A program made the position numbers and the translations under genes. A DNA stretch of 33,669 bases. Source: an uncultured Bacilli bacterium. GTDB taxonomy: Bacteria > Bacillota_I > Bacilli_A > RF39 > UBA660. The stretch lies in NCBI GenBank assembly GCA_944371905.1, contig CALVYA010000001.1:69627-103295 (forward strand), read 5' to 3'. This document shows positions 26,805-33,605 of the stretch, in pieces (position 1 is the stretch's first letter; the number at the start of each line of letters is the position of its first letter). A model generated the notes under the pieces. That model worked only from the letters and a program-made list of their open reading frames with translations, had not been told where the DNA came from and made no database searches.

Positions 26805-26848
26805 TTATAAAAACATATTTTTCACATATAAATTAATAGGTGAAGAAT

Positions 26849-27931
26849 ATGTTTTTTAAAAGTATTGATAAACGAATTAGAATAGTTTTAATCATTGTTA
26901 TTGCTATGTTTGTAGTTATTGTTTTAAAAGTTGCCTATGTTCAATTAATAGATTATGTTAAATTAAATGAATTAGCGGATGATTTATGGAGTAGAGAATT
27001 ACCGATTGCTGCAGATAGAGGGAGAATATTAGATCGAAATGGGGTAGTACTTGCTGATAATATAACTACCACTAGTCTAGTTCTTATTCCTAATCAAATC
27101 ACTGATAAGGAAAAAGCATCAACTCTTCTTGCAGAAATATTAGGAGTTACGAAAGAAGAAATGGATAAACATGTGTACAAAGAAACTTCTATTGAAAGAG
27201 TTCATCCGGAAGGTAGACAATTATCGTATGAAGTAGCGGATAAAATAGATTCTCTAGGTTTAGATGGAGTATATTTGGTAAAAGAATCAAAGAGATATTA
27301 TCCCTATGGTACTACATTATCACATGTTTTAGGGTATGTGGGAATTGATAATCAAGGATTATCTGGATTGGAATTAGAGTATGATGATTATTTAACTGGT
27401 GAGAATGGAGCAATTAAATATTTCTCTGATGCTAAAGGTAATACTTTAGATATATCTGAAGTATATGAAGCTCCTCAATCGGGAATAGATATTCAATTAA
27501 CCATTGACTATAATATTCAAAAATCAATTGAAAGAGAGTTAGATAATGTTGTAGATATGTTTTCGCCAGATATGGCTTTAGCAGTTGTCATGGATCCTAA
27601 TACAGGAGAGATTTTAGGAATGAGTAGTCGTCCTACATACGATTCTAATAACTATAGTGATTATTCTATGGAAGTATTAAGTAGAAATTTACCAATATGG
27701 GCTTCTTATGAGCCAGGATCAACTTTCAAAATTATAACAACTGCCGCAGCGGTAGAGGAAAAAGTAATAGATTTAGAAAATGATACTTTTGATGACTCTG
27801 GTTCAGTTACTATAAGTGGCGCTAGAATTGGTTGCTGGAAAGCAGGGGGGCATGGTCATCAAACTTTTCTCCAAGTACTAGAGAACTCTTGTAACCTAGG
27901 TTGCAGACTAGAGATACCAAGATCACTCTAG
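26849..27931 (+). pseudogene. Class B penicillin-binding protein, truncated by element insertion
   Basis: This is the N-terminal 360 or so residues of a class B PBP of the FtsI/SpoVD type, a septum or elongation transpeptidase. Visible are the membrane anchor (about 8-30), the conserved AADRGRILDRNGVVLA, the GLSGLELEYDDYLTG dimerisation-type region, and the transpeptidase motifs SxxK (EPGSTFKIIT) and SxN (ENSCN). The sequence then runs into LGCRLEIPRSL and a stop. The KTG motif and some 200-350 residues are missing, so the product cannot be active. I chose the ATG at 26849, with AGGTGA 5 nt upstream, over the GTG at 26840. The break coincides with the left end of the serine-recombinase element. 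Confidence 0.88.
27891..27903 (+). other. Candidate attL core
   Basis: GTAACCTAGGTTG lies in the codons for C-N-L-G next to the PBP SxN motif, which is a conserved target. It contains the palindrome CCTAGG. It is matched imperfectly at 33593-33605. Confidence 0.4.
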
Positions 27932-28170: not shown

Positions 28171-29358
28171 GTGAATAAAGCTTTTGATTTTAACAATATT
28201 AATCAATATGATACTTATATAATTAATATCAATAAAAAAGATTATGAAAAAATGCAAGAATGTATATATAGTTTGACAAAGAAATATAATTGCATAATAA
28301 AAAAATTTTATGCAATAGAAAAAAATAATACAAAAGAATTTGAATTTAATAATCAAAGAAACTTCATAATATTACATAAAAAATTATTGATAAATATTAT
28401 TAATGATGTATTAAAAATATATAATGAAGAGTTAAAAGACTTAGGTGTAGTTTTTTTATCAGGTAGTTTTGCAAGAGGAACCAATAAAATGAGTAGCGAT
28501 GTAGATTTACATTTTTTCTATAAAAACGACAGTTATAATTATATTTACGAGGAAATAATTTCTTATATAATTTCTAGGGTTATTAATAAATCGAGAGATT
28601 GTATTGATCCAACTTTTATCTTTAATATTCAAAATGAAAATAAAATTATGATAACAAGTAAAATGGATAAAAGCAAATTAAGTGTAATATTAAAATATAA
28701 AAACACAGAAATTAAATATTCATATAAATATGGTAAAAAGAGAAGATTTTATTTACAATATACTAATACTAGAGATATAAACAAATTATTTAATTATCTT
28801 AATAATGAAATGAATAAACATAACGAAGAATGGTGTCATTGTTTTAAAGTCATAAAAGGGAAAAATATTTTTAATAAATTGTATGATAAAATGTATATTC
28901 AAGAACAAAATCTTGTAAATAATGATTATATCAGTAATAAGATAAATGCATTAATAGAAACTATAAAAGTTAGTAGAAAGAATATAATAAATAATTCTAT
29001 ATCACAATATAAAAATTACTATCAAAGTAAAACTTTTGAATGGATATATGAATATGTATCTATAATCAGATTTATTCTTATAAAAGAAAATTATATAGTA
29101 AAATATTTAAATTTATTAGATATATATGACACTATAGAAGAAAATTCAATTATAAATAAAAATATACTAATAAATATATATAAATATATGTGGAATTTAG
29201 AAAAATTATCAGTATATTGTTATGAAAATCAGATTAATTATGGATTGCATAATGATGACATGATTGATTATTCGACAAAAGAATTAGATAAAAATTTAGA
29301 GTTGTTAAAAAATCAAATTCTAAATGATTTAGAAAGGTTAGGAGTATTATATGAGTAA
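28171..29358 (+). CDS. Nucleotidyltransferase-fold protein (element cargo)
   Basis: This 395-residue protein contains the minimal nucleotidyltransferase core LGVVFLSGSFARGTNKMSSDVDLHFF: the GS pair at about 98-99 and the metal-binding Asp residues at about 110 and 112. A third acidic residue may lie in DCIDPTF. The first 85 residues and the last 230 are mainly helical and Asn/Lys/Ile rich, and I do not recognise them. The arrangement is similar to GlnD/DUF294-type proteins more than to small antitoxin or aminoglycoside enzymes. I chose the GTG at 28171, as GGGTGA stands 5 nt before it. It is the first gene of the cargo operon and overlaps the next gene by 8 nt. The transferred nucleotide and the target are unknown. 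Confidence 0.75.
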   Translation: MNKAFDFNNINQYDTYIININKKDYEKMQECIYSLTKKYNCIIKKFYAIEKNNTKEFEFNNQRNFIILHKKLLINIINDVLKIYNEELKDLGVVFLSGSFARGTNKMSSDVDLHFFYKNDSYNYIYEEIISYIISRVINKSRDCIDPTFIFNIQNENKIMITSKMDKSKLSVILKYKNTEIKYSYKYGKKRRFYLQYTNTRDINKLFNYLNNEMNKHNEEWCHCFKVIKGKNIFNKLYDKMYIQEQNLVNNDYISNKINALIETIKVSRKNIINNSISQYKNYYQSKTFEWIYEYVSIIRFILIKENYIVKYLNLLDIYDTIEENSIINKNILINIYKYMWNLEKLSVYCYENQINYGLHNDDMIDYSTKELDKNLELLKNQILNDLERLGVLYE

Positions 29359-30421
29359 AGCTATTTTAACACTACCTATGATGCCAGTAGATGGTCATAA
29401 TTATGGAAAATTTGTAACTCCGATTATTTGTGAAACATTAAGTAATATTTTTAGTTGTGATTATTATCACTGTATAAATATATTAGATTCATTTAATGAT
29501 AGAAGTGTGATGATAGATAATTATATTGCATCTTTAAATGAGAATAATATTCATTATGATAAACTGTGGTATGATATAGAAAATGTTCCAAAATTATTAA
29601 AAAATATAGAATTTTTAATTAAAAATGGATATATATTTGAATTGGATTCTAGTATATACAGGTGTGAATGTGGTATTGTAGAACTAGAGAAAGATAAAAT
29701 TAACACATGCAATCCAAATAACTTGAAATTTTATTATGATAAAGATAAGTTAGTGTGTAAACAATGTGGCTCAATTTGCAAAGAGTATCAAGAAAAAATA
29801 TTAGTTTTTGTTCCAAATGGTATTAAATTACAAGATATAAGTATTCTTCCAGGATATTTAAATAAGGATATTAAAACTTATGAGCAAACTGTTTTGAAGT
29901 CATATACAACAATTTCTAGAAAGAGAAATACGGGAGTTACCATTAATTATAATGGAACTAGATATAATATTGATATAGATTTTTTATGGGAGACATATTT
30001 AAATACGTTCGAAGAACAGGAAAAGATTGTTGTGTCTGGCAATAGAATGATTTATCAATTATTTTTAGTGAACGTATTAGAAAAATGTTTATCTCCAGAA
30101 AATAACACAATTTTAATCGGAACTCCATATATAACAAATATTAAGAGTATTTTACAAAAACCAAATTTTATTGATAATGAAGAATTAAGAAAACTATTTA
30201 TATTATTTAATACAAAATGGCAAAGAAAGGAAATATTATATGATGAAACAATACTTACATATTTAAGAAATTTGTCAAGTGATAAAAGAAAGCAATTATA
30301 TGATATAATAAATATGCCCATAGTAGAAAATAGTGATTTTTATAATGATACAGAAGAGATACTAAAAAAACAATTGAATATGCAAGAGAGTGTAAAAAAA
30401 TTAAAATTAGAAAGAAGGTAA
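29351..30421 (+). CDS. Class I aminoacyl-tRNA synthetase-like protein (element cargo)
   Basis: This 356-residue protein resembles the catalytic half of class I synthetases of the Met/Cys group. ILTLPMMPVDGHNYGKF at the N-terminus takes the place of the HIGH motif (HNYGK at 16-20). INILDSFNDRS and NIEFLIKNGYIFELDSSIYRCECG follow the usual order up to a zinc knuckle (Cys105, 107 and 120, then 136, 139 and 143). TISRKRNTG (187-195) is a possible KMSKS equivalent. There is no room for an anticodon-binding domain, so charging a normal tRNA by the usual mode is unlikely. It may activate an amino acid for another acceptor. It sits between a nucleotidyltransferase and a peptidase gene in one tight operon. 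The assignment is by motif pattern only. Confidence 0.6.
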   Translation: MSKAILTLPMMPVDGHNYGKFVTPIICETLSNIFSCDYYHCINILDSFNDRSVMIDNYIASLNENNIHYDKLWYDIENVPKLLKNIEFLIKNGYIFELDSSIYRCECGIVELEKDKINTCNPNNLKFYYDKDKLVCKQCGSICKEYQEKILVFVPNGIKLQDISILPGYLNKDIKTYEQTVLKSYTTISRKRNTGVTINYNGTRYNIDIDFLWETYLNTFEEQEKIVVSGNRMIYQLFLVNVLEKCLSPENNTILIGTPYITNIKSILQKPNFIDNEELRKLFILFNTKWQRKEILYDETILTYLRNLSSDKRKQLYDIINMPIVENSDFYNDTEEILKKQLNMQESVKKLKLERR

Positions 30422-30424
30422 TTT

Positions 30425-31108
30425 ATGTATAGTGTATTATTAAGTGAATATGAAAAAGGTATGGAACTAGTTGAAAGTAAATTAAAAAAATTGATTAATC
30501 CTACACAAAAGGCTGTAATTATTGCTTGGACTTTCCCTACAGAAATAGATAAGAAAACATTTGATGAAGAATGGTTTCCAAAGGGTGGGAGAAGATATAA
30601 TAAATATGTTGGGTCATTATTAAAATTAGGAATTAAGGAAGAAAATATAACTGTTTTGAACTGTTATGATAAAGATAACTTTAAAAACTTTAAATCGATA
30701 ATATATGATAGTGATATATTGGTAATAACTGGGGGTAATCCTGAAATGTTATATAGTAAGGTTACTCAAGAAACTGAAATTTTATATAGTATAAAACATT
30801 ATAAGGGAATTATTATTGGATTTAGTGCAGGTGCAGATTTGCAATTAAAAAGATATTTTATTACAGCTAAAAATAATTATTATAAATATTTTGCTTTTTA
30901 TGATGGCTTTGGAGTTTTAGATGATCCATTTTATATGGATGTTCATTCAATAAATAATAAGAGATATTTAGAAAAATTACAAAAAGTTGCTAACGATAAA
31001 AAGAAAAATGTATATGCAATTTTTGATGATGGTGCAATGATTTATGATAGAAGCACTAATAAACTAGAAATATTCGGAAATGTTTTAACGTTCGAACCAA
31101 AGGAATAA
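30425..31108 (+). CDS. Peptidase S51 (PepE-like) family hydrolase (element cargo)
   Basis: This 227-residue enzyme has the class I glutamine-amidotransferase-like fold of peptidase E. Visible are VITGGNPEMLY, the nucleophile elbow IIGFSAGAD (Ser134) and MDVHS (His174), the usual pattern for S51 peptidases. PepE itself cuts Asp-X dipeptides and related proteins cut cyanophycin; what this one cuts cannot be told. The N-terminal part AVIIAWTFPTEIDKKTF... has the length of the family. It starts 3 nt after the synthetase-like gene and is 1 nt from the HAD gene, so all four are surely on one transcript. Confidence 0.82.
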   Translation: MYSVLLSEYEKGMELVESKLKKLINPTQKAVIIAWTFPTEIDKKTFDEEWFPKGGRRYNKYVGSLLKLGIKEENITVLNCYDKDNFKNFKSIIYDSDILVITGGNPEMLYSKVTQETEILYSIKHYKGIIIGFSAGADLQLKRYFITAKNNYYKYFAFYDGFGVLDDPFYMDVHSINNKRYLEKLQKVANDKKKNVYAIFDDGAMIYDRSTNKLEIFGNVLTFEPKE

Positions 31109-31109
31109 T

Positions 31110-31445
31110 ATGAAACTATTAGTTACAGATTATGATAATACATTAGAGTTACATTATGATTTTACTGATAATATTTCCATTTTAAAGAGAAATATAAAGG
31201 CGATAAACAAATTTATGAAAAAAAACCTTGTTTGTATAGCGACTGGCAGACATTTTGATGCTATATATAAAACGTTAATAGAAAACAATATCAAATTTAA
31301 TTATTTATGTGCTAATAATGGTGCAGAATTATATGATGGTACTTATAATTTATTGTATTGTTTGCCTATTGAAGAACAAGATTTAGGAATTTTGATAAAG
31401 TTAGGTTCAAAGTTTTTTTTAGAAATCCTTGTAATAGTAAATTAA
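31110..31445 (+). CDS. Cof-like HAD phosphatase, N-terminal part (frameshifted)
   Basis: This is the first part of a HAD-superfamily phosphatase of the Cof type, which removes phosphate from small phosphorylated compounds. Motif I is LVTDYDNTLE (Asp7 and Asp9) and motif II is CIATGRH. The frame ends after LGSKFFLEILVIVN, which is not family-like. At 31413-31420 a run of eight Ts (ttt ttt tta in frame) allows a -1 shift into a frame that gives FRNPCNSKLISSANLYFDNL and the rest of the enzyme. Together the two parts make about 227 residues with all four motifs, so the shift is either programmed, a length variant of the T-run, or a sequencing error. Confidence 0.75.
   Translation: MKLLVTDYDNTLELHYDFTDNISILKRNIKAINKFMKKNLVCIATGRHFDAIYKTLIENNIKFNYLCANNGAELYDGTYNLLYCLPIEEQDLGILIKLGSKFFLEILVIVN
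31413..31421 (+). promoter_or_regulatory. Possible -1 ribosomal frameshift site
   Basis: The zero-frame codons ttt ttt tta contain the canonical slippery heptamer T TTT TTA (31415-31421) in the right phase. The -1 frame continues AGA AAT CCT and joins the HAD halves. I did not identify a strong stimulating structure just downstream. Confidence 0.4.
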
Positions 31446-31792
31446 TTTCTTCTGCAAATCTATATTTTGATAATTTAAAAGATTTTGAACAAGTAAAAGA
31501 ATATTTAGATAATAATTTAACGAAATCGTTTGTTGAATATAAATATCCAAAAATAAAAGTAATTAATGAAAAGTGTAATAAATTGGATATAATAAAAATA
31601 ATACAAGATGCTGAAAAAATAGATAATAAAAGTATTTACACAATAGGTGATGATATAAATGATATTCAAATGATTAAACACTATAACGGATATTCTTTAA
31701 TAACAGCAAAAGAAGAAACTAAAAGAGCTGCTTCTAAACTGTATGAAGAATTAAATCAATTAATAAAAGAAATTGATAAAGAGCAAGATTAA
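31415..31792 (+). CDS. Cof-like HAD phosphatase, C-terminal part (-1 frame)
   Basis: This is the remainder of the HAD enzyme, open in the -1 frame from the T-run to 31792. It contains the motif III Lys in NEKCNKLDIIKIIQ and the motif IV metal site YTIGDDINDIQMIK, then the usual end (YSLITAKEETKRAASKLY). The internal TTG at 31583 has no ribosome binding site, so separate translation is not expected. Conserved motifs on both sides of the shift argue that the protein has been under selection until recently or still is. Confidence 0.75.
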   Translation, partial: FFRNPCNSKLISSANLYFDNLKDFEQVKEYLDNNLTKSFVEYKYPKIKVINEKCNKLDIIKIIQDAEKIDNKSIYTIGDDINDIQMIKHYNGYSLITAKEETKRAASKLYEELNQLIKEIDKEQD

Positions 31793-31849: not shown

Positions 31850-31987
31850 ATGGAAAATATTATAAAAGAATTAAAAATAACAATTAATAAGTATTTGCTG
31901 CAAAATGAAATAATCAGTTTTGAAGAATTTAAAATCATGAATGAAGAATTGTTAAGGGAGAAAAATAATGAACATTCTAAAAACTAG
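31850..31987 (+). CDS. Small SHOCT-like protein ahead of the recombinase
   Basis: This 45-residue protein begins at the ATG at 31850 with GGGAGG 5 nt upstream; a longer in-frame reading from 31796 would start inside the cargo terminator and has no site. The sequence INKYLLQNEIISFEEFKIMNEELL fits the short SHOCT-type pattern (L..g.Is.eEFe..k..LL), which often mediates oligomerisation. It overlaps the recombinase start by 20 nt, so it is probably coupled to it. It could be an accessory or directionality factor, but nothing in the sequence proves this. A TATAAT at 31822-31827 may be its promoter. Confidence 0.55.
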   Translation: MENIIKELKITINKYLLQNEIISFEEFKIMNEELLREKNNEHSKN

Positions 31988-33548
31988 AGGTGAATTATTA
32001 AGTGGAAAAACAATTTATGATATGGATTTAAATGTTGGTTATTATGCAAGAGTATCCACAGATAAAGATGATCAATTAAATAGTTTAGAAAATCAATCAA
32101 AATATTTTAGAGAAATGATAAATGAAAATAAAAATTGGAATCTTGTTGGAGAATATATAGATGAAGGTATTAGTGGTACACAAGTAAATAGAAGAGATAA
32201 CTTTTTAAGAATGGTAAATGATTCTAAAAAAGGAAAATTGGATTTAATTGTTACAAAAGAAATATCAAGATTTTCTAGAAATGTTGTAGATAGTATTAAA
32301 TATACCGAAGAATTATTAAATAATGGTACAGTAGTATATTTTTTAAGTGACAATATAAATACTATATATCCCGATAGTGAATTTAGATTAACTTTGATGT
32401 CAAGTTTAGCTCAAGATGAGGTAAGAAAACTTTCTGAAAGAGTAAAATTTGGAATTAAAAGAATGATAAAAGATGGTAAAATAATAGGAAGTAATTTGAC
32501 CGGTTATTATAGAAAAGATGGTAAATTAATAATAAATGAAAATGAAAAAGAAATTATAGAAATATTATTTAATCTTTATTCTACAGGTAAATATTCGTTT
32601 GATAAAATATCTAGTATTTTATCTGATAAAGGATATTTAAATAAAAATGGAAAACAATATTCTAGTTCTACTTTAAAAAAGTTTTTAACTAATCCACGAT
32701 ACAAAGGATATTATACTGCTAATTTAACATATGTTGAAAATTATAAAACTCATAAAAAGGTAGCTGTGCCAGAAAGTGAAAGAATAATTTATAAAGATGA
32801 AAATATACCTGCAATCATCTCGGAAGAATTATGGAATAAAGCTAACAATGTATATAATGAAAGAAGAAATGTTAAAAATAAAAATATAATAAATAAAGAA
32901 AAAATCATAGAAAACTCAAAATATACAAACAAAATCATTTGCAACAAGCATAATGAAATTTTTGTAAGATGTGCTGGTGGTAAAAGAAAAAAGAGACCAG
33001 TATGGACTTGCAATGAATATAAAAAAGGTGGGGTTTTAAAATGCAATTCACCTATAATTGTTGAATCTAGTTTAGATAAAAAAATATCAGAGATAATAGA
33101 AAAATTTATAAAAAACTTCAAACAAGAAATTAGAAAAAGTTTATTAAAAGAATATGTTAATGTTTTAGACATAGTTAATAATAAAGAATTAACTAATTTA
33201 AAAGAAAAATTATTGGAGTTAGATAGAAACAGAGAAAAATTAATTGATTTAAATTTAAAAATGATTATTAACAATGATGAGTTAAAAACTAGATTATCAA
33301 AAATTGATAAAGAGAAAAATGAAATTAATTATAGAATTAAGTCAATAAAGAATAAAGATGATAGTAATAAAATTTTAGCAATTGAAAAAAACATAAATCG
33401 ATTACTCAATATCAGTGATAATTTAAATATATACACTAATTTGTTTATAGATAGGATTATTGTTACTGAAGGGGATACAAGATATAAAATGAATTTTGAA
33501 ATTCATTTAAAAAATAAGGAAATAGTTAGTACTTTTTTTGAAAATTAA
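31968..33548 (+). CDS. Large serine recombinase (integrase/TnpX type)
   Basis: This 526-residue site-specific recombinase is likely to integrate and excise the element. The resolvase domain starts VGYYARVSTDKDDQ with the catalytic Ser30, then DEGISGTQVNRRDNF, LIVTKEISRFSRN and LSSLAQDEVRKLSERVKFGI. The recombinase domain follows (SILSDKGYLNKNGKQYSSSTLKKFLTNPRYKGYY), then a zinc ribbon (IICNKHNEIFVRC and WTCNEYKKGGVLKCNSP), a coiled-coil region rich in Lys and Glu (about 390-480) and a short beta end. It looks complete. GGGAG precedes the ATG at 31968. It is the last gene of the element, about 45 nt before the candidate attR core, the usual position for such enzymes. Confidence 0.95.
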   Translation: MNILKTRGELLSGKTIYDMDLNVGYYARVSTDKDDQLNSLENQSKYFREMINENKNWNLVGEYIDEGISGTQVNRRDNFLRMVNDSKKGKLDLIVTKEISRFSRNVVDSIKYTEELLNNGTVVYFLSDNINTIYPDSEFRLTLMSSLAQDEVRKLSERVKFGIKRMIKDGKIIGSNLTGYYRKDGKLIINENEKEIIEILFNLYSTGKYSFDKISSILSDKGYLNKNGKQYSSSTLKKFLTNPRYKGYYTANLTYVENYKTHKKVAVPESERIIYKDENIPAIISEELWNKANNVYNERRNVKNKNIINKEKIIENSKYTNKIICNKHNEIFVRCAGGKRKKRPVWTCNEYKKGGVLKCNSPIIVESSLDKKISEIIEKFIKNFKQEIRKSLLKEYVNVLDIVNNKELTNLKEKLLELDRNREKLIDLNLKMIINNDELKTRLSKIDKEKNEINYRIKSIKNKDDSNKILAIEKNINRLLNISDNLNIYTNLFIDRIIVTEGDTRYKMNFEIHLKNKEIVSTFFEN

Positions 33549-33592
33549 ATAATATGTCAAAATATTTTTTTTAAATCTTGTTGTAGCTCCCA

Positions 33593-33605
33593 GTAATCTT
33601 GGTGG
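33593..33605 (+). other. Candidate attR core
   Basis: GTAATCTTGGTGG matches 27891-27903 at 10 of 13 positions. The inner arm atcttgt (33575-33581) mirrors accaagat on the left side. Beyond it (33606-33669) I see no recognisable coding sequence. Confidence 0.4.

Follow-up and report, generated by a model that had tools for sequence, protein, structure and literature searches.

The locus described here raises the question of what a tightly packed set of enzyme genes does inside a mobile element that interrupts the sporulation gene spoVD. The stretch of DNA analysed (the window, 33,669 nt in length, to which all gene coordinates refer) comes from an uncultured, gut-type lineage of Bacilli and carries four such genes on its forward (+) strand. 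These are NT, encoding a nucleotidyltransferase with a GlnE/DrrA-like fold and a GS...SDxD core (28171..29358); SYN, encoding a protein with the fold of methionyl-tRNA synthetase (MetRS), devoid of the HIGH and KMSKS motifs and with a Cys cluster at residues 105/107/136/139/143 (29351..30421); S51, encoding a peptidase-like hydrolase with conserved Ser134 (GFSAG) and His174 (30425..31108); and HAD, an optional gene for a Cof-type phosphatase (31110..31792). We tentatively favour a reading in which a small serine-recombinase element in spoVD carries these genes as its cargo, with NT and SYN as the core, usually accompanied by S51, and in which NT would AMPylate SYN or its ligand.

Recurrence of the NT-SYN-S51 Module

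An earlier note on this DNA, made from the letters and their open reading frames (ORFs), had placed four coding regions on one strand, overlapping or 1–3 nt apart, and this layout was borne out. NT and SYN overlap by 8 nt, gaps of 3 and 1 nt separate SYN from S51 and S51 from HAD, and a Shine-Dalgarno-like stretch was found upstream of every start. NT, SYN, and S51 are intact. The HAD gene, read in the note as a single open frame, turned out to be broken, as Pfam Hydrolase_3 matches were obtained for both of its halves (2e-10 and 4e-11) in different frames, and comparison with the relative at locus L015 showed the loss of one base near 31404. This frameshift could be either a true mutation or an assembly error. 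A position within the T8 run was excluded, as the same run exists in L015 and the missing base lies just upstream of it.

The search of 84,980 species genomes identified 24 loci encoding SYN, and most of them (about 20) keep the order NT-SYN-S51 between unrelated neighbours, a recurrence that exceeds chance. The earlier note had allowed that the families might not occur together beyond this locus; the three genes are in order at many loci, and in one genome (L037) NT and SYN are even fused into a single protein of 742 residues. The proposed four-enzyme set was upheld for these three genes but not for HAD, which is not part of the core and is present at a minority of the loci. A HAD gene of the same kind as that of the window was found 3' of the module in L014, L015, and L018, with intact relatives in the first two, and a different one follows a GatZ-like gene in L016. 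No described system matching the set was found in PADLOC, NCBIfam, or the literature searched, in agreement with the note, and that literature also gave no paper on AMPylation with synthetase-like proteins.

The distribution of SYN is sporadic: in profile searches, 14 of 385 genomes of the bacterial family were positive, and a sample of 392 genomes from the phylum contained a single positive, the genome of the window itself. The composition of the module also varies. The order is SYN-S51-NT in L019 (the same locus as L010), and S51 was not found in the genomes of L037 and L028, so that NT plus SYN is the smallest unit seen. Copies of the module are decayed in L015, L021, and L036, which fits an accessory trait. 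Besides the window, a serine recombinase was found beside only one module copy (L024), which indicates that the cargo is not tied to the recombinase of the window. At L030:2593-3441, a radical SAM gene lies between SYN and S51, and at L033:7950-11638, from Clostridia, a truncated SYN stands beside a full second MetRS, a thymidylate-kinase-like gene, and a truncated S51.

Folds and Active Sites of the Three Proteins

NT showed a Pfam match to NTP_transf_2 (4e-7), and its structural model (predicted local distance difference test, pLDDT, of 90) resembled protein adenylyltransferases over the whole protein, with Z scores of 16–17 over 283–305 residues and root-mean-square deviations (rmsd) of 4.5–5.0. 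The best match was the N-terminal domain of glutamine synthetase adenylyltransferase, GlnE (Z 17.4 over 305 residues), with its C-terminal domain at 16.5 and DrrA at 16.1, whereas the alignment of an aminoglycoside nucleotidyltransferase with most of NT gave a Z of 7.5. The catalytic residues G101, S102, D113, and D115 (GS...SDxD), a core shared with GlnE and DrrA, are invariant in 17 of 17 members, in which identity to the copy of the window ranges from 18 to 71%. Since the matched GlnE and DrrA are enzymes that adenylylate proteins, our first guess is that NT, too, AMPylates a protein. The movement of nucleotides attributed to NT in the earlier note is thus a generic label, for which the fold of a protein AMPylator is a better fit. 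Unlike GlnE, NT has no Pfam GlnE match, contains a single copy of the unit, and has a MetRS-like protein as its genetic partner.

SYN had no family match in Pfam, NCBIfam, or PADLOC, and no significant match when its sequence was compared with solved structures. However, its AlphaFold model (pLDDT 89) matched methionyl-tRNA synthetases best among the solved structures (Z 21.3, 319 residues, rmsd 3.5), with the MetRS-like domain of PyrN also among the best matches. The SYN profile and that of MetRS from the bacterial family plus one Clostridia copy agree across the zinc region and the ISRxRxTG segment that comes after it (E 2.6e-4). The class I synthetase fold and the zinc-type Cys cluster predicted from the letters therefore stand, but both histidines of HIGH and the KMSKS motif are missing in 18 of 18 aligned members; the motif positions were placed by reading the alignment, and the absence of the motifs is independent of that placement. 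Because of this absence, ordinary amino-acid activation by SYN, as proposed in the earlier note, seems unlikely from the sequence. In the same 18 members, N43, D75, five Cys, S189, R192, D208, D210, W213, N231, and W290 are invariant, with identities to the copy of the window of 25–78%, and the active site is, judging by this alignment, remodelled rather than decayed. An ordinary MetRS is kept by the genome of the window on another contig.

MetRS paralogs, MshC, and cyclodipeptide synthases are ligase-type precedents for making amino-acid-derived metabolites. Like SYN, the PyrN-type MetRS paralogs of cupin/lysine-monooxygenase pathways use the MetRS catalytic fold outside translation and in mobile gene sets, but they retain the adenylation residues (PMC2922099), whereas SYN has lost HIGH and KMSKS and is accompanied by NT and S51. 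Cyclodipeptide synthases share with SYN the class I synthetase fold and the loss of HIGH; SYN differs from them in keeping a MetRS-like zinc insert and in having MetRS as its nearest fold. NT and SYN make a concrete, testable pair for an undescribed use of the MetRS fold without adenylation motifs.

The S51 protein, assigned to Peptidase_S51 (PF03575, 8e-7), is the most conserved member of the module, with 48–93% identity to the copy of the window and invariant Ser134 and His174; comparison of its sequence with solved structures gave no significant match. Hydrolases of this family cleave Asp-type bonds. It shares with PepE and cyanophycinase the Pfam family and the conserved catalytic Ser and His, and differs from them in that the S51 proteins of the module form a clade of their own with the conserved block RYFITAKNNYYKYFAFYDGFG. 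Relatives of S51 elsewhere in the class were excluded as module carriers, as they stand alone, with NT and SYN missing within about 1.5 kb.

Possible Functions of the Module

In the reading that we favour, NT would be a protein adenylyltransferase like GlnE or DrrA, and its target would be SYN or a molecule held by SYN; one of these is its most likely substrate because NT plus SYN is the smallest unit and was fused once. SYN, as a remodelled MetRS, may serve as a binding protein for an amino acid, an aminoacyl nucleotide, or an aminoacyl-tRNA that it does not itself make, and S51 would act in this pathway by hydrolysing a bond of the aminoacyl or peptidyl type, either making or removing the ligand. 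The module as a whole would be an accessory, horizontally spread regulatory or immunity unit rather than part of housekeeping metabolism. The element probably exits spoVD through its recombinase when SpoVD is needed, by analogy with the skin and gin elements, as suggested by the junctions in relatives, which are precise and restore the frame. A full circuit can also be drawn, in which a GlnE-type enzyme would modify a pseudo-MetRS sensor of an amino acid or aminoacyl ligand and S51 would close the loop, on elements that would dock at three spoVD sites and be shed from the mother cell as SpoVD is rebuilt; we consider this complete scheme rather unlikely.

Several points weigh against the reading favoured here. 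A GlnE-/DrrA-like fold is no proof of protein AMPylation, as the aminoglycoside nucleotidyltransferase (ANT) type of antibiotic adenylyltransferases and MntA have the same catalytic core and match NT at lower scores. The output is not defined by any transporter, toxin domain, or gene of known defence function, and excision was not observed. In addition, GNAT, radical SAM, GatZ-like, NUDIX, and glyoxalase genes, found once each at module loci, suit biosynthesis or resistance equally.

A first alternative, a small biosynthetic pathway that we regard as doubtful though arguable, would employ SYN as a MetRS-derived ligase for an amino-acid-derived metabolite, with NT adenylylating an intermediate, S51 trimming, HAD dephosphorylating, and other tailoring enzymes acting in single loci. 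Pathways of this kind are known to contain MetRS paralogs (PMC2922099), cyclodipeptide synthases have lost HIGH too, and the rank of PyrN among the fold matches of SYN points the same way, as do the GatZ-like, radical SAM, GNAT, NUDIX, and HAD genes in or beside the operon. However, these tailoring genes are mostly not common to different loci, NT resembles a protein AMPylator, and among the neighbours read, not every one of which was scanned, no cupin domain or lysine N6-monooxygenase was recognised, nor any adjoining transporter or carrier protein. We give less weight to a role in resistance or immunity against an antibiotic of the aminoacyl-nucleotide or peptide-nucleotide type, in which SYN would serve as a decoy target, NT would modify the drug, and S51 would cleave it. 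The NT core is near that of aminoglycoside nucleotidyltransferases too, cleavage of Asp-type bonds is known for the S51 family, and GNAT and glyoxalase/bleomycin-resistance-type genes adjoin some copies of the module, but the whole-length match of NT is better to GlnE and DrrA than to ANT enzymes, and the active-site residues of SYN are altered yet strongly conserved, unlike those of a simple decoy.

An anti-phage defence or toxin–antitoxin role, in which SYN would sense an infection cue and NT would adenylylate a host target, appears just as improbable. The location of the module as mobile-element cargo, its sporadic distribution, the fast divergence of NT beside a conserved S51, and a weak resemblance of NT to MntA would be in line with it. 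Against it, PADLOC models gave no system match but only weak and partial matches, chiefly to NT; no known defence gene adjoined the module in the loci read; and no relatives of SYN or S51 were found in the plasmids, phages, or viral contigs searched.

The Carrier Element and Its Insertion Sites in spoVD

The earlier note overlooked that the element interrupts spoVD at codon ~352. The 5' part of the gene (26840..27896, +; TIGR02214, 1e-106), residues 1 to about 352 by comparison with uninterrupted relatives, is intact up to the left junction, where the core TGTAACC (27890..27896, +; site B) marks the end of spoVD and the beginning of the element, and where uninterrupted relatives go on with CCNGGNTTTGT (PGFV). 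Downstream of the cargo, a large serine recombinase is encoded at 31968..33548 (+; Resolvase 3e-31, Recombinase 3e-19). Directly upstream and overlapping it is a small ORF of 45 aa (31850..31987, +), with a relative at the same place in L179:3921-4244, which we only guess to be a candidate directionality factor.

The right end of the element (33545..33598, +) resembles its counterparts in L169, L170, and L171, the resemblance involving the last 50 bases before 33594. From that position to 33669 (+), the comparison of ends identified the core TAATCTTGG and, after it, a left end that resembles the one in L170, and the bases past the core resemble the left ends of other site-B elements and not spoVD; no real match to the sequence past this junction was found elsewhere in the genus. 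This could represent either a second site-B element in tandem or a circular junction caught by the assembly, and a simple insertion flanked by spoVD on both sides was unsupported. Because the right end abuts the left end of another element and the contig has no sequence past 33669, the element is visible only in part, and its description as a serine-recombinase element that lacks transfer and phage genes is correct for the 5.7 kb in view but cannot be extended to the entire element. The left end in the window is unlike any other left end read, for which reason the element may be composite. Inverted repeats were detected at the left and right ends of the elements; the attP arms of serine integrases carry such repeats.

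In many genera, relatives of the recombinase (50–67% identical) lie immediately before the 3' part of spoVD, and nearly all members of its clade with readable flanks adjoin a spoVD piece ending or starting at residue 350–355. Among 47 genomes of the bacterial family, counted from search rows, spoVD was intact in 26, in pieces in 16, and not found in 5; in one of the 16 (G005), the split may simply reflect the end of a contig. The breaks lie at about residues 295, 350, or 412, and all five genomes of the genus of the window have the gene in pieces. Both pieces are on one contig in three genomes, 8–15 kb apart, and in L185:2434-14747 and L176:6774-14549 a single contig carries the gene in three pieces, separated by two serine-recombinase elements. 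When the flanks were joined in L169, L170, L175, L176, L185, and L173, they were free of stops and the frame was restored; the window itself lacks the right flank. The recombinases at the third site in three genomes share 74–94% identity among themselves in the regions compared and about 43% with that of the window, so each recombinase clade appears, from these identities, to be tied to its site. The genome of the window has spoVD in at least two pieces, located on different contigs (26840-27896 and G000:C17:23174-23848), and its third site is occupied by a second recombinase element; the middle piece (residues 348–408) was not found in the G000 assembly. In this large uncultured family of Bacilli, spoVD is thus a recurrent, three-site insertion target.

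Among known systems, the gin element in gerE of Bacillus cereus is a non-prophage serine-recombinase element in a sporulation gene, described in a paper whose text does not include spoVD (PMC5595907), and no report of spoVD-intervening elements was found in the literature searched. Like the spoVD elements, gin and the skin elements of sigK are non-phage or phage-like, lie inside a sporulation gene, and encode a large serine recombinase; precise junctions, a short common core, and flanks that rejoin into an open gene are also shared. The spoVD elements differ in their target, in using three insertion codons with sometimes two elements per gene copy, and in their small size (about 3–15 kb in the relatives measured). 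A published survey reported spoVD as reduced or absent in the order RF39 (PMC10868615); if the family, as gene content and the number of genera suggest, belongs to RF39, this absence may in part reflect splitting instead of loss.

Other spoVD elements carried different cargo. The site-B element at L174:5881-14558 encodes a NAD kinase, a NAD synthase, a nicotinate phosphoribosyltransferase, a nucleotidylyltransferase, and a phosphoribosyl-pyrophosphate-synthetase-like protein, which constitute a NAD salvage set. Similar-looking cargo was observed at two different spoVD sites in different genera (L169:6529-9974 and L074:1306-4952), comprising in L169 methyltransferase-containing, uracil-DNA-glycosylase-like, and deoxyribosyltransferase-like proteins. 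Finally, the elements in L177, L179, L182, and L183 encode a large protein that, by its start, is similar to VirD4-type coupling proteins, which suggests that part of this family of elements may be conjugative.

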